Assembly (NCBI GenBank): GCA_018816335.1
Contig: JAHIVP010000020.1
Coordinates: 1-42,483 of the forward strand
Source of the DNA: Nanobdellota archaeon
GTDB lineage: Archaea > Nanobdellota > Nanobdellia > Pacearchaeales > GW2011-AR1
Reading direction: 5' to 3'
DNA: 42,483 nucleotides
Of this stretch, positions 2,736 to 35,847 are shown piece after piece. The notes beneath the pieces are model-generated. The model was not told the origin of the DNA. It saw only the letters and a program-made list of their open reading frames with translations, and searched no databases. Position 1 is the stretch's first letter. Each line of letters opens with the position of its first letter. The translations under genes and the position numbers were made by a program.

Positions 2736-2840
2736 GTTATAACTATAAATTAATACTATTTAAAATTATTCAAACCCCAGAATCCACCACCCCTCACCAC
2801 ACTCTCAACATAATCAACCTAAAATTCTGACTAATAATTA

Positions 2841-2893
2841 ATTTTTATTCTATTAAAAGGGAGGGTGGGAGGGTTTTATTATAGAATAAAAAT
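2841..2893 (+). repeat. G-core hairpin element E1
   Basis: The left arm ATTTTTATTCTA (2841-2852) pairs perfectly with TAGAATAAAAAT (2882-2893). Between them are TTAAAA, the core GGGAGGGTGGGAGGG (2859-2873) and TTTTATTA. The right arm carries about two extra bases, giving an asymmetric bulge. The core has four G-runs with one-base loops, a canonical G-quadruplex motif. Confidence 0.85.
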
Positions 2894-3037
2894 AGTTACT
2901 TAATCCCTCTTCCCTCAAACCCCCAGCCACCCCACACCCCCCCTTCCTTACCAAAACCAATCCACTCTCTAACCTCCCTCAAACTCCCCCGCCAACCCAC
3001 CACCCCAAAAATAATGCCCACGCCAATTTAGTTTCCA

Positions 3038-3099
3038 ATTAATTTTTATACTATTAAAAGGAAGGGAGGGTTGGGTTTTATTATAGTATAAAAATTAAT
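3038..3099 (+). repeat. G-core hairpin element E2, next to gatA stop
   Basis: The 16-bp arms ATTAATTTTTATACTA (3038-3053) and TAGTATAAAAATTAAT (3084-3099) are perfectly complementary. The core at 3060-3075 is GGAAGGGAGGGTTGGG. Compared with E1, one arm base pair is swapped from T:A to A:T, with both arms changed. The right arm ends one base before the gatA stop codon. On the gatA transcript the core would be C-rich. Confidence 0.85.
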
Positions 3100-3100
3100 C

Positions 3101-4531
3101 CTAAAATTCAGAAGCAAGAGAAAACATAAAATCCTCATCAAATTTCTTACAAAAAATTTGCATCCCAACAGGAACAGAATCTATATGACCAGCAGGAACA
3201 CTAATCGCACAAATCTCTGCGAGATTTGCAGGGATTGTCAAAGCATCATAAGCATACTCCTCTTCAAAACTTGGCCTTTCTGAAAATTTCCACGGCAAAC
3301 TTGGAGCAGCAGGTAAAATTAAAGCATCAAACTTCTCAAATGCTTTCTCAAACTCTTTCTTAATTATTTCCTTAGCTTTCAATGCTTTTCTATAATATGT
3401 TCCTTCATACTCAGCTTTACTTATCTCTTCTCCTCCTAACATCCTCCTCAAAGCCTCAACACCCGCAGCCTCCTCAAACTTCTTTCCAAACCTTCTTCCA
3501 TCCAACTTCCTAGTCCCAGAAAAAAACTCAACATAAACAATAGGATAATAAGTCTGAACAGCTAAATCAAGATGCTTCAAATCAATCTCTTTAATCTCCC
3601 AATTCTTATCCCTCGCTGTTTCATCTAACTTCTTCTTAATAACATTCATAATCCTCTCATCTGAAATTTTAATCTTAGGAATTCCAATCTTAATTTTATT
3701 TAAATTAAAATGAGAAAATTTATTTCTTAATTTTTTTGGGGGTGAATAGGCGTGGTGGGCAAGGGTGGGTCTTCGCGTAAGCGAACTAGTAGCGGGTGTT
3801 GAAATAAATTTTTGAAAATCCTCACTTATCGGATCTTTTTCATCAGCCCCCTTTATTACATCAAATAATAATTTACAAGACTCAACATCTTTTGCAACAG
3901 GAGCAATCTGATCTAAACTCATAGCTAAATCAATTAATCCATAACGAGAAACAGAACCATAAGTTGGTTTCATTCCAACAACACCACAATGAGAAGCAGG
4001 ATTTCTAATTGAACCTCCTGTATCACTTCCCAAAGCCAAATCACAAAAATCAGCAGCAACACTAGCAGCACTTCCAGATGAAGAACCTCCAGGAACTCTA
4101 TCTAAAGCAGCCGGATTTAAGGTATTTCCAAAAGCAGAATTCTCTCCACTTGAACCAGAAGCAAACTCATCACAATTAGCCATTCCTAAAATAATTCCAT
4201 CTTCTTTCTTAATCTTCTCAATAACAGTTGCATCATACGGGGATTCATAATCTTCAAGTACTTTAGATGCACATGATGCATGAAGCCCTTTAACATTTAT
4301 AGCACTCTTAACAATAATTCCTAATCCAGCAAGTTTCCCTGCTTTTCCAGATTTAATTTTCTTATCAACTTCCCTCGCTTCATTCACAGCATTTGAATTA
4401 ACTTCAAGAACAGCATTTATTTTCTTCCCTTTCTTATTATTCTTATCAATCTCATGAAGAAGTTTTTTAATATTCTTCTCTGCTGTTAATCTTCCTTCTT
4501 TTATTGCTTTTACTTTTTCTAGGGGTTTCAT
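3101..4531 (-). CDS. gatA: Asp/Glu-tRNA amidotransferase subunit A (GatA), with in-frame insert
   Basis: 476 residues of the amidase-signature family. GatA frees ammonia from glutamine and feeds it to GatB, which converts Asp-tRNA(Asn) or Glu-tRNA(Gln) to the amide form. The catalytic triad is visible as Lys75 (GIIVKSA), the cis-Ser at 150 (GGSSSGSAA) and Ser174 (GSDTGGSIRNPA). Residues about 241-276, between DPISEDFQ and NKIKIGIPK, are an unusual Pro/Arg/His/Ser-rich stretch coded by element E3; GatA normally has only a short linker here. The gene is last in an operon led by gatC, and its ATG overlaps the previous stop (ATGA). The C-terminal VPVGMQIFCKKFDED is typical of GatA. Confidence 0.95.
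   Translation of the reverse strand: MKPLEKVKAIKEGRLTAEKNIKKLLHEIDKNNKKGKKINAVLEVNSNAVNEAREVDKKIKSGKAGKLAGLGIIVKSAINVKGLHASCASKVLEDYESPYDATVIEKIKKEDGIILGMANCDEFASGSSGENSAFGNTLNPAALDRVPGGSSSGSAASVAADFCDLALGSDTGGSIRNPASHCGVVGMKPTYGSVSRYGLIDLAMSLDQIAPVAKDVESCKLLFDVIKGADEKDPISEDFQKFISTPATSSLTRRPTLAHHAYSPPKKLRNKFSHFNLNKIKIGIPKIKISDERIMNVIKKKLDETARDKNWEIKEIDLKHLDLAVQTYYPIVYVEFFSGTRKLDGRRFGKKFEEAAGVEALRRMLGGEEISKAEYEGTYYRKALKAKEIIKKEFEKAFEKFDALILPAAPSLPWKFSERPSFEEEYAYDALTIPANLAEICAISVPAGHIDSVPVGMQIFCKKFDEDFMFSLASEF
3715..3812 (+). repeat. G-core element E3 embedded in frame within gatA
   Basis: The arms AAAATTTATTTC (3715-3726) and GAAATAAATTTT (3801-3812) pair over 12 bp. Between them lie a G-rich stretch (3738-3769, including GGGCAAGGGTGGG), a small hairpin TTCGC-GTAA-GCGAA (3772-3785) and GCGGGTG. 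The whole unit is read through in the gatA frame without a stop. It codes for about 33 residues unlike their surroundings, so an element of this family appears to have entered an essential gene and been kept as protein. Confidence 0.75.
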
Positions 4532-6262: not shown

Positions 6263-6338
6263 AAAGTTATTAATTAACAATATAACAAACGCCAAAGGCG
6301 TTTCTGGGTGGGTGGGCTGGGGATAATTAATAATCTTT
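6263..6338 (+). repeat. G-core hairpin element E4 with inner hairpin
   Basis: The outer arms TTATTAATTA (6267-6276) and TAATTAATAA (6324-6333) pair, extended by AAAG/CTTT across a one-base bulge. Inside are a perfect hairpin AAACGCC-AAA-GGCGTTT (6287-6303) and the core GGGTGGGTGGGCTGGGG (6306-6322). The inner hairpin and the preceding AATATAACA match element E11, except that one pair is G:C here and A:T there. Confidence 0.85.
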
Positions 6339-8859: not shown

Positions 8860-8877
8860 ACCTACGAAATATTGAGA

Positions 8878-9023
8878 GTGTCTAATAATTCAATAAAAAT
8901 ATATTTTCAATCGACGTTATTTTATTATTTTCTTCATTCGGGAGGGATGGGCTGGGGGATGGAGGGGGGGATTATAAAATAACGTAGTAAAAACTACATG
9001 AAAATAATTTATTTTTTAGACAC
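8878..9023 (+). repeat. G-core element E5, 146 bp, GTGTCTAA ends
   Basis: The ends are GTGTCTAA (8878-8885) and TTAGACAC (9016-9023). Further in, a perfect 12-bp stem is formed by ACGTTATTTTAT (8914-8925) and ATAAAATAACGT (8974-8985), enclosing TCTTCATTC and the G core 8940-8970. A small hairpin GTAGT-AAAA-ACTAC sits beside the right arm. E13 is a second copy with the same ends and core flank but a differently sequenced, still perfect, 12-bp stem. Confidence 0.88.
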
Positions 9024-9723: not shown

Positions 9724-9811
9724 TTTCACCACTTCTTTCAACTTTAATAGAACTTAATCCTTATAAAATTATTGACATCAAAAAAATTCTTGTTATAAAT
9801 AAAAAAATATT

Positions 9812-9915
9812 ATTTTATTCCACAATAAAGGGTGGGTGAGCGATTTCACGAGGAGATGAAAATTGACTAACGAGTGAAGTCTGGAGTTGGGAGGGTTTAT
9901 TGTGTAGAATAAAAT
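9812..9915 (+). repeat. G-core element E6 with split core
   Basis: The arms ATTTTATTC-CACAATAAA (9812-9829) and TTTATTGTG-TA-GAATAAAAT (9896-9915) form two 9-bp helices separated by a TA bulge on the right side. The G core is split: GGGTGGG (9830-9836) at the left and GGGAGGG (9889-9895) at the right, with a central insert of about 50 bp. E12 shares this layout, including GAGTTGGGAGGGT at the right edge. The insert segment 9837-9852 matches 14 of 16 bases at 12174-12189 in E7. Confidence 0.85.
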
Positions 9916-9961
9916 TAGAAGAAATATAGTATGAAAAAATTTTAATAAAATTATAGATTAA

Positions 9962-12085: not shown

Positions 12086-12274
12086 GTTGTACGGAATAGC
12101 ATGATTTTACTAAATTAGGAGGGGTTTAGGGATGGGGGTAGGGAGGGTATCGACGATAATCGAAGTTTAGTGGTGAGTGATTTCGCGAGTGGGGGTTAGG
12201 AATTATTTAATATGGTGGCGAGCGGGGTCAGGAATAGGATAATAAAATCATGAGAAACTTTAATTCCGGACAAC
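12086..12274 (+). repeat. G-core element E7 (large, complex)
   Basis: Nested arms: GTTGTACGGAAT (12086-12097) pairs with ATTCCGGACAAC (12263-12274) with one mismatch, and CATGATTTTA (12100-12109) pairs perfectly with TAAAATCATG (12243-12252). The interior is G-rich throughout, with a dense block at 12118-12147 (AGGGATGGGGGTAGGGAGGG near its end) and further G-runs near 12190 and 12222. The segment 12174-12189 resembles part of E6. It follows the radical SAM gene and precedes a + strand gene, so any transcript would be G-rich. Confidence 0.78.
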
Positions 12275-17755: not shown

Positions 17756-17869
17756 CTTACACCCTTTTATTTTTCAATGACATTTAACTATAAAAACATT
17801 ATTAAACTTCTATAAATACTTCTAATTAACACATAATCAGAAAATTTTGTTCCATAAAAGAAAAGAGTT

Positions 17870-17922
17870 ATTTTACTCCAGAATAAAGGGTGGGTGGGAG
17901 GGTTTATTATATGGAGTAAAAT
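17870..17922 (+). repeat. G-core hairpin element E8 in the gatB promoter
   Basis: The arms ATTTTACTCCA (17870-17880) and TGGAGTAAAAT (17912-17922) pair over 11 bp. The core GGGTGGGTGGGAGGG (17888-17902) is flanked by GAATAAA and TTTATTAT. The right-arm extension TTTATTATAT lies about 30 nt before the gatB start and could act as its TATA box. This is the simplest member of the family. Confidence 0.87.
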
Positions 17923-17938
17923 TAGGAGAGTTTTTATA

Positions 17939-19327
17939 ATGGGAAAAAATTCAAAAAACAAAATGCAAGACATAAAAATAGGTCTAGAAATCCACGGCTA
18001 TCTAAACACAGAAAAAAAACTATTCTGCAATTGTGATTCAATTCATAGCCCCACAACAATACCTAATACTTCAATATGCCCAATCTGCACAGGCCAACCA
18101 GGAAGCAAACCAATGAAACCAAACAAAGAAGCAATTGAAAAATTTCTCCAAACATCTTTAATGTTAAACTGTAAAATAAATCCTAAATTCAGATTTCAAA
18201 GAAAACATTACAACTGGCCAGACCTTCCAAAAGGTTACCAAGATACAATTTCCGGAGCTCATAGTACAAACCCCGCAGTTGAAGGAAAATTTGAAAATAT
18301 AAAAATAATAGAAGCTCATTTAGAAGAAGACCCTGCAGCATGGAACCCAGAAACAGGTTGCATAGATTACAATCGTTCAGGACTTCCCTTAATAGAAATT
18401 GTAACATATCCAGAATTCAAAACATCAGAAGAAGTTGCAACCTGGCTAAAAAATCTAATCCTAACTTTAAGCTACATAAAAACAATAGATAAAAAACTAG
18501 GACTAAAAGTAGATGTCAATATTTCTATAAATCAAGAGTTCGGAGGAAACAGAGTTGAAGTAAAAAATCTTCATTCAATTGAAGAAATAAAAAAAGCAAT
18601 AGAATTTGAAATAATTAGACAAGAAAAACAAGGAACACAAAAAGAAACAAGAAGATATGACAGCTCAAAAAATCAAACAACTGTTATGAGAGCAAAAGAA
18701 AACCTAGAAGACTATGAATTTATTCCTGACCCAGATCTTCCAACAATAACTCTTGATAAAAAACAAACAGAAAAAATAAAATCATCACTTCCTGAATCTC
18801 CTCAACAAAAACTAAAAAAACTAATTAAAAAACACAAAATAAACACCTATAGTGCTAATGTATTATCCAAAAATTTAGAAATTGTAGAATTCTTTGAACA
18901 TGTAGCAGAATCTATACCTCCGGCATTTGCTTTAGACTGGATAACAATTGAATTATTAAGAGTTCTAAAATATAATAAAAAAGAATTAGACCAAGTAGAA
19001 ATTAATGTTAAACATTTTATAGAACTTCTCCAAGCAGTAAAAGATAAAAAACTAACAGAACTAAAAGCAAAACAAATTCTAAATCAATTCATTCCTAAAT
19101 CTTTTTCAATTAAAGACACATTAAAAGATGTAAAAACAATTGACAACAAATCACAAATAGAAACACTTGCAAAACAAGTTATAAAAGAAAACCCAAAAGC
19201 AGTAGAAGACTTTAAAGCAGGAGAACAAAAATCCATAAACTTTCTTATTGGTCAAGTTATGAGATTATCAGAAAGAAGAGCTGATTTTAAAGTTGCTAAA
19301 AATATACTTGAGAAATTATTAAAATGA
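17939..19327 (+). CDS. gatB: Asp/Glu-tRNA amidotransferase subunit B (GatB)
   Basis: 462 residues. GatB phosphorylates the tRNA-bound Asp or Glu and amidates it with ammonia from GatA. The catalytic cradle shows GLEIHGYLNT, a zinc site (FCNCDS and CPICTGQPG), YNWPDLPKGYQDTIS, EEDPAAW and DYNRSGLPLIEIVT. The C-terminal helical and YqeY-like domains bind tRNA. The ATG at 17939 has a GGAGAG site eight bases upstream; an upstream GTG start at 17894 would lie inside element E8 and is rejected. gatA and gatC are 12 kb away. Confidence 0.95.
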   Translation: MGKNSKNKMQDIKIGLEIHGYLNTEKKLFCNCDSIHSPTTIPNTSICPICTGQPGSKPMKPNKEAIEKFLQTSLMLNCKINPKFRFQRKHYNWPDLPKGYQDTISGAHSTNPAVEGKFENIKIIEAHLEEDPAAWNPETGCIDYNRSGLPLIEIVTYPEFKTSEEVATWLKNLILTLSYIKTIDKKLGLKVDVNISINQEFGGNRVEVKNLHSIEEIKKAIEFEIIRQEKQGTQKETRRYDSSKNQTTVMRAKENLEDYEFIPDPDLPTITLDKKQTEKIKSSLPESPQQKLKKLIKKHKINTYSANVLSKNLEIVEFFEHVAESIPPAFALDWITIELLRVLKYNKKELDQVEINVKHFIELLQAVKDKKLTELKAKQILNQFIPKSFSIKDTLKDVKTIDNKSQIETLAKQVIKENPKAVEDFKAGEQKSINFLIGQVMRLSERRADFKVAKNILEKLLK

Positions 19328-29342: not shown

Positions 29343-29359
29343 TTCAACCCACAATAAGA

Positions 29360-29409
29360 AGCAACCCTACAAAAGGGTGGGTGGGCTTTGGGTTTTATAT
29401 AGGGTTGCT
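29360..29409 (+). repeat. G-core hairpin element E9 upstream of proS
   Basis: The arms AGCAACCCTA (29360-29369) and TAGGGTTGCT (29400-29409) pair over 10 bp and can be extended by ACAAT (29351-29355) with ATTGT (29411-29415). The core GGGTGGGTGGGCTTTGGG (29375-29392) is followed by TTTTATA. The proS TATA box (near 29428) lies outside the element. Confidence 0.85.
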
Positions 29410-29457
29410 CATTGTTAATTAAACAAAATTTAAATAACACAAAAACTAACTATAAAT

Positions 29458-33037: not shown

Positions 33038-33154
33038 TCAAACCCTCTGTTTTTGAGATTTTTCTAAATACTAATTAATTTAGCACCGAAGGTGCTAAGG
33101 GTGGGTGATGGGAAGGGAATCTATTTAGAAAAACCTAATTTTAGAAGGGTTTGA
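33038..33154 (+). repeat. G-core element E10 with inner hairpin and long stem
   Basis: The outer helix TCAAACCCT (33038-33046) pairs with AGGGTTTGA (33146-33154). After an internal loop, TTTTTCTAAATA (33059-33070) pairs with TATTTAGAAAAA (33122-33133). Inside are the hairpin TTAGCACC-GAA-GGTGCTAA (33080-33098) and the core GGGTGGGTGATGGGAAGGG (33099-33117). The layout is as in E4 and E11. Confidence 0.87.
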
Positions 33155-34085: not shown

Positions 34086-34157
34086 AATTCTGTGGATTAA
34101 TAATATAACAAACACCGAAGGTGTTTAGGGGGGTGGGAGGGAACAATCCACAGAATT
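34086..34157 (+). repeat. G-core element E11 with inner hairpin
   Basis: Perfect 13-bp arms AATTCTGTGGATT (34086-34098) and AATCCACAGAATT (34145-34157). Inside are the hairpin AAACACC-GAA-GGTGTTT (34110-34126) and the core GGGGGGTGGGAGGG (34128-34141). AATATAACA before the hairpin is shared with E4. Within the hairpin, the A:T pair here is G:C in E4. Confidence 0.88.
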
Positions 34158-35262: not shown

Positions 35263-35314
35263 AATAATTAAATTTTTGTACCATAATTAACTTTCTTTTA
35301 CAATCATTAACATA

Positions 35315-35431
35315 TTAATTTTATCCTATTAATAGGGTGGGCGAGCGTTTGCAGTTTTATGTATCTAAACAATATGCTTGACAAACTGCGGGCGCGAGTT
35401 GGGAGGGTATTAATATATAGGATAAAATTAA
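35315..35431 (+). repeat. G-core element E12 with split core
   Basis: The arms TTAATTTTATCCTA (35315-35328) and TAGGATAAAATTAA (35418-35431) pair over 14 bp. Next to the core, TTAATA faces TATTAATATA, leaving extra bases on the right. The G core is split into GGGTGGG (35335-35341) and GGGAGGG (35401-35407). The central insert folds through GCAGTTT (35351-35357) and AAACTGC, so it carries its own hairpin. It matches E6 at both core edges. Confidence 0.85.
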
Positions 35432-35487
35432 AACAAAAATTTCAAATTTATCTAAACTAATTCAGAAAAATTACAATATAAACCTAA

Positions 35488-35646: not shown

Positions 35647-35692
35647 ATGATAACAAAGAAGAAAACATATTTAAACTTGACGATACGAGTGA

Positions 35693-35836
35693 GTGTCTAA
35701 TAATTCAAAATAATTTTTTAGTTTATCAACGCAGTTTCATTAATTTTATCTTCATTCGGGAGGGAGGGAGGGGGATGGAGGGGAGATATGAAACTGCGTA
35801 AGAGAAATATGTTAAATTTAATTTATTTTTAGACAC
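35693..35836 (+). repeat. G-core element E13, 144 bp, GTGTCTAA ends
   Basis: A second copy of the E5 type. The ends GTGTCTAATAATTCAA (35693-35708) and TTAGACAC (35829-35836) match E5. The flank TCTTCATTC and a G core (35758-35785) also match. The 12-bp inner stem ACGCAGTTTCAT (35729-35740) / ATGAAACTGCGT (35788-35799) is perfect but differs from E5 at four to five base pairs, changed on both sides. Confidence 0.88.
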
Positions 35837-35847
35837 GCTCACAAAAT

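Follow-up and report, generated by a model that had tools for sequence, protein, structure and literature searches.

A G-rich palindromic repeat read in frame by gatA of a Nanobdellota archaeon, and its strand-oriented family

The gatA gene of a Nanobdellota archaeon (genome G000) is read straight through a G-rich palindrome, named E3, and the locus raises the question of how such a sequence came to lie in the frame of a conserved gene. The window, that is, the whole stretch of DNA analyzed, is a contig of 42,483 nucleotides belonging to a 0.9-Mb genome of 45 contigs, about 82% complete, of which 898,941 of 899,882 bases were read. Its named GTDB neighbors are MAGs of Candidatus Pacearchaeota and Nanoarchaeota. 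The arms of E3, AAAATTTATTTC and GAAATAAATTTT, pair over 12/12 bases and enclose an interior made of GGGGG..GTGGTGGG..GGGTGGG and a hairpin, TTCGC-GTAA-GCGAA, the core being G-rich on the plus strand (Table 1). The gatA frame crosses the element without a stop, which adds about 33 residues, KFISTPATSSLTRRPTLAHHAYSPPKKLRNKF, including the peptides STPATSSLTR and RPTLAHHAYSPPK; among the six frames, it is the only one open across E3. An earlier note on this DNA had described this structure and this read-through, and its coordinates proved exact.

Taken alone, the palindrome is moderately unusual, its arm score being reached at 4 of 300 random places in the genome, with DNA fold z-scores of -1.5 and -2.0. 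E3 is judged to be real not by the strength of the palindrome alone but because visual comparison aligns it with the remaining class E copies (a CTAAA-TTT-GGGG start, an AAGGG(A/T)GGG block, a small hairpin, and (T)AG..GGGTGT before the right arm), and because its position coincides exactly with the residues missing from GatA orthologs. E3 is probably one spread copy of a family of short, noncoding, G-rich palindromic repeats, landed and kept in frame in a linker of GatA.

A protein search yielded GatA homologs from 28 further genomes, all belonging to the same family, order, or class. The insert is missing from 26 of them, where a short linker stands instead, and named archaeal and bacterial GatA sequences, added in a further alignment, likewise lack it. 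A linker of similar length throughout the relatives, which would have spoken against an insert, is thus not seen, and the absence fits a gain of E3 by insertion. The claim of the earlier note that the elements can enter new sites is supported as far as insertion is concerned; recent movement is not demonstrated, the arms being too diverged between copies.

In an AlphaFold model of GatA built on an alignment of 20 sequences (mean pLDDT 83.6, pTM 0.87), residues 241-273, which correspond to the insert, form the sole run with a pLDDT below 50, and the prediction is thus of an amidase left intact, with the insert as an unstructured loop. That the host protein tolerates it, as the earlier note held, is plausible from this model, where the core is confident and the low-confidence run is confined to the insert. 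The E3 copy would have entered an exposed linker that joins the amidase core to the following strand, would be translated as a disordered and presumably harmless loop, and may have been kept because the frame was preserved.

Expanded linkers occur in the two remaining relatives. The GatA linker of G024 (L002), a member of another genus, contains its own G-rich palindrome, in which the arms ATTTTGCT/AGCAAAAT flank a class D-like core. As its class differs from that of E3, the linker has accepted two elements independently. In G003 (L003/L205), the same GatA linker is lengthened by 15 unrelated residues (CPECTDARRAG), the opposite strand of this gatA segment showing GGGCAGGTAGGTAGG.

The family to which E3 belongs counts about 87 copies in G000, distributed in several classes, with a median length of 59 bp; ten lie within genes and about 75 are intergenic. 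The genome, taken in stretches, was scanned for G-clusters flanked by inverted repeats, and 87 elements were kept after a few had been dropped by eye and eleven overlapping ORFs in sense had been added, the selection being partly by eye. Class A, with about 50 copies near 55 bp, consists of a stem plus GGGNGGGNGGGNGGG, and in class A-long the G-runs are split by a module of ~60 nt. Class B displays an inner hairpin (AAACGCC-AAA-GGCGTTT) plus G-runs, class D has in its full form GTGTCTAA/TTAGACAC ends, class C comprises three copies, and class E includes E3.

Within one class A copy, the arms match at 97%, a figure inflated by their having been picked for pairing (random sites still give much weaker arms), versus 45% between copies. 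The core is thus conserved, and the stem sequence changes while its pairing is kept. RNAalifold recovered only six pairs on class A because the aligner shifts the arms around a conserved bulge, and arm pairing was counted by script instead. A copying of the arms from the target is unlikely, since GCAAC-type arms are shared by several class A copies that lie within different genes. No element of the window matched an Rfam covariance model above the gathering score.

Table 1. Positions in the window of gatA, of E3, and of the other G-rich palindromic elements.
Feature	Position	Strand	Details
gatA, Glu-tRNA(Gln)/Asp-tRNA(Asn) amidotransferase subunit A	3101..4531	-	476 aa; E3 = residues about 240-273; TIGR00132 E=1.8e-132
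E3, class E	3715..3812	+ (G strand)	Antisense to gatA; arms 3715-3726 / 3801-3812, G-rich core, inner hairpin
Class A	2840..2892	+	Stem plus GGGAGGGTGGGAGGG
Class A	3038..3099	+	
Class B	6264..6336	+	Inner AAACGCC-AAA-GGCGTTT hairpin plus G-runs
Class D	8876..9023	+	GTGTCTAA/TTAGACAC ends; inner hairpin 8913-8986
Class A-long	9809..9916, ends approximate	+	G-runs split by ~60-nt module
Class E	12100..12200, ends approximate	+	Intergenic
Class A	17869..17923	+	Overlaps GTG start of gatB-like ORF 17894-19327
Class A	29358..29413	+	GCAACCCTA-arm subtype
Class B	33058..33134	+	
Class B	34087..34156	+	
Class A-long	35308..35432, ends approximate	+	
Class D	35691..35838	+	GTGTCTAA/TTAGACAC ends; inner hairpin 35728-35800

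Some further features of the window and of the genome deserve mention. The intergenic stretch 2900-3035, between two class A elements, is C-rich, with G-runs on the minus strand, opposite to the usual orientation. In the gatB-like ORF, the GTG called as start falls within a class A element, and the true start is probably an ATG about 15 codons downstream. A tandem 30-bp repeat occupies 2518-2667 within ORF 1944-2735. A G-run motif without a stem, GGGNGGG..GGGCACTA, is repeatedly found antisense in unrelated ORFs (C39:3021, C6:2518, C6:4024, and C20:1673; loci L068, L036, and L050), where it encodes AQPTHP/VPTQPTLS-like stretches. Lastly, G-rich minisatellites are located at or near contig ends (C27:1-250, C26:1-103, and C32:6160-6390) and possibly cause assembly breaks.

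E3 is not alone in its situation, since nine more elements lie in frame in conserved genes. For comparison, G000 was aligned with the proteins of G011 and G002, two relatives with near-complete genomes, and the names of the host genes are backed by profile matches. Ten elements were found within nine genes, encoding GatA, PolB, DNA ligase, PheT, Bud32 (twice), a Trm5-like protein, TYW3, an Xpf/Hef nuclease, and Dus. Nine of these elements, in all the genes but that of Dus, are each spanned by a single alignment to an ortholog devoid of the insert. The copies are sense in the genes for ligase, PheT, the nuclease, PolB, and Bud32, and antisense in those for GatA, the Trm5-like protein, TYW3, and Dus. 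All ten keep the reading frame without a stop, for which the chance at one in three each is about 2 in 100,000. The protein alignment revealed no frame-broken host gene, a search that genes destroyed by insertion would escape. The element-rich region is 84% coding, yet only about a tenth of the elements lie in genes. The same course as in gatA was probably followed in the eight other genes, frame-breaking copies presumably being purged.

Hairpins within essential genes could also be removed like introns after transcription, or skipped by the ribosome as mitochondrial byps are, leaving the protein unchanged; ribosome bypassing of hairpin inserts is already known (PMC5009743). However, neither process needs the frame that all ten elements keep, and E3 is open in the gatA frame only, which makes such a processing very improbable.

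The same alignments bear on the ends of the elements, from which the earlier note expected the exact insertion boundaries and a target duplication. At gatA, E3 lies exactly where the orthologs lack residues. In the eight other aligned in-gene cases, the added stretch of protein exceeds the palindrome in length, and the boundaries are therefore not base-exact. A target duplication did not appear, flanking direct repeats of 2-5 bp being no commoner over all 87 elements than with shuffled flanks, and no congeneric genome provided an empty site, both of which count against the reading of E3 as a spread copy.

The elements obey a near-perfect strand rule. Of 79 elements, 78 have a G strand opposed to the GC skew of their surroundings, irrespective of gene direction, and the single exception does not look like an element. 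A transcription-linked role, e.g., as terminator, was rejected, as the strands of the flanking genes are mixed and the in-gene copies are both sense and antisense. In genomes of three other genera (G024, G030, and G013), 12 of 12 elements also run against the local skew, which is weak at several of these sites. Positive skew usually marks the leading strand; if it does so here, the GC skew would make the G strand the leading-strand template. The rule hints at a spread or a survival tied to the direction of replication.

The distribution along the chromosome is uneven. With the contigs of G000 ordered by their orthologs on the G011 chromosome, the orthologs at 0-207 kb number 98 on element-rich versus 13 on element-poor contigs, and those beyond number 13 versus 200. 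In this conserved ~200-kb block, where the skew is negative almost throughout, all 68 elements of known contig orientation lie on one strand, and the about 600 kb outside it contain almost no elements. An orc1/cdc6 gene (C23:10945-11250) is located close to the edge of the block, and the skew changes sign near C23:44 kb. Element density being strongly bimodal between contigs, the bin could be thought to mix two organisms, with and without elements, or the GatA insert to be mis-assembled. The mixed bin was rejected because composition is uniform across contigs and because the element-rich and element-poor contigs, mapped onto the chromosome of one relative, cover complementary parts of it; contig C23, moreover, spans the boundary between the two, and an artefact is thus scarcely credible.

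Among the relatives searched, matches are confined to the family of G000. The class A covariance model matches G000 at 59 places but none of 55 relatives, the class B model matches G000 and eight other genomes at E<=0.001, and class D matches come from G000, G024, G114, and G030. Class B cores are found in G013, G030, G031, G114, G168, and others. In a search of 200 genomes of the order, every matching genome belongs to the family, copy number differing widely between genera. The genome G114, from another genus, holds eight class D and four class B matches, of which four on its contig C26 are all on one strand. No such palindrome was found in the near-complete G011 and G002, where orthologs of the block are present.

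These observations also bear on a functional interpretation, in which the elements are chromosome signposts (polar G-rich hairpins akin to FtsK-orienting sequences, fork barriers, or repair hotspots) usefully positioned even within genes, rather than selfish repeats. The near-absolute orientation, its recurrence in other genera, the confinement to one conserved block, and the keeping of stems while their sequence drifts would suit such a role, as would, weakly, the G.T mismatches outnumbering A.C ones on the G-strand stems (14 versus 5), which favor a folded G strand. Against it stand the lack of such elements in G011 and G002 despite their orthologs of the block, the copy-number differences between genera, the existence of several dissimilar classes, and the about 600 kb of G000 almost without elements, so that this role is considered unlikely.

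Under the preferred explanation of a spreading repeat, repeats made of a hairpin stem with a G-quadruplex-type core would have spread through G000 and, at lower density, through the family's other genera. Insertion would take place by way of a single strand folded at the replication fork, or only one orientation would survive replication; the latter, in which a G-quadruplex sequence persists through replication in a single orientation, is as good a candidate as a choice of strand at insertion. Neither Y1 transposase nor TnpB was found in the about 82%-complete genome. One reverse transcriptase and two tyrosine recombinases are encoded, on element-poor contigs. The reverse transcriptase (C45:23199-24248, L093:3299-4348; 349 aa) has a group II intron RT as best match, below cut-off.

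A spread without transposase could also be purely local, a folded strand being copied nearby by template switching at stalled forks, which would keep both strand and neighborhood. The common strand, the contiguous domain, the presence in Bud32 of two similar copies separated by 235 bp, and the lack of a transposase among the families tested agree with it. However, copies lying close together did not resemble each other significantly more than copies lying far apart (p=0.10), and they did not share a class significantly more often either (p=0.11); local copying is accordingly held to be rather improbable. It is a speculative and somewhat doubtful possibility that transposase-less mobile hairpins with G-quadruplex cores, copied via the folded strand at the fork, all facing the same way and on one arm, drive new loops into replication and translation proteins.

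By their features, the G000 elements come closest to a known kind of palindromic element that codes for protein, described in Rickettsia, Wolbachia, and Methanocaldococcus. The Rickettsia palindromic elements, about 100-150 bp long and of several families, are intergenic as well as in frame in unrelated conserved genes, where they are tolerated as extra protein segments (PMC2229807, PMC10969869). The G000 repeats resemble them in being intergenic and in frame in conserved genes, and in being absent from the orthologs of relatives. They differ by the domain of life, a shorter length, G-quadruplex-type cores, arms strongly different between copies, an orientation locked to GC skew, and a location mostly in one chromosomal block. 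The elements of Wolbachia and Methanocaldococcus, cited in PMC2996958, are also in-frame palindromic repeats in host genes, one case being archaeal, and the citing passages of that paper do not mention a G-rich core or a strand rule.

Other systems share fewer traits. Like prokaryotic MITEs, the G000 elements are short, multicopy, gene-less, and bounded by terminal inverted repeats; unlike them, they show no target-site duplication, and no matching autonomous transposon was found in searches for Y1_Tnp and TnpB. IS200/IS605 and REP/RAYT elements are hairpins with a preferred strand, IS608 and ISDra2 targeting the lagging-strand template (PMC6006769). The G000 elements are likewise fixed, relative to GC skew and thereby probably to replication direction, but have G-rich cores in a genome where neither Y1 transposase nor TnpB was found.

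As the Rickettsia-like kind is already known, the G000 elements are not categorically new; the new points are the G-quadruplex-type cores, the strand rule, and the distribution in one block. Selfish palindromic repeats in essential genes have been documented mainly in Rickettsia and Wolbachia, and a DPANN archaeon is now added, with polymerase, ligase, tRNA synthetase, and tRNA-modification genes among those affected. The strand rule and the confinement to one block would link spread or survival with replication direction, a testable connection for which the consulted parts of PMC2229807 and PMC10969869 contain no report on the Rickettsia elements. Finally, by having been entered in two genera independently, the GatA linker reveals which protein loops can take up insertions.
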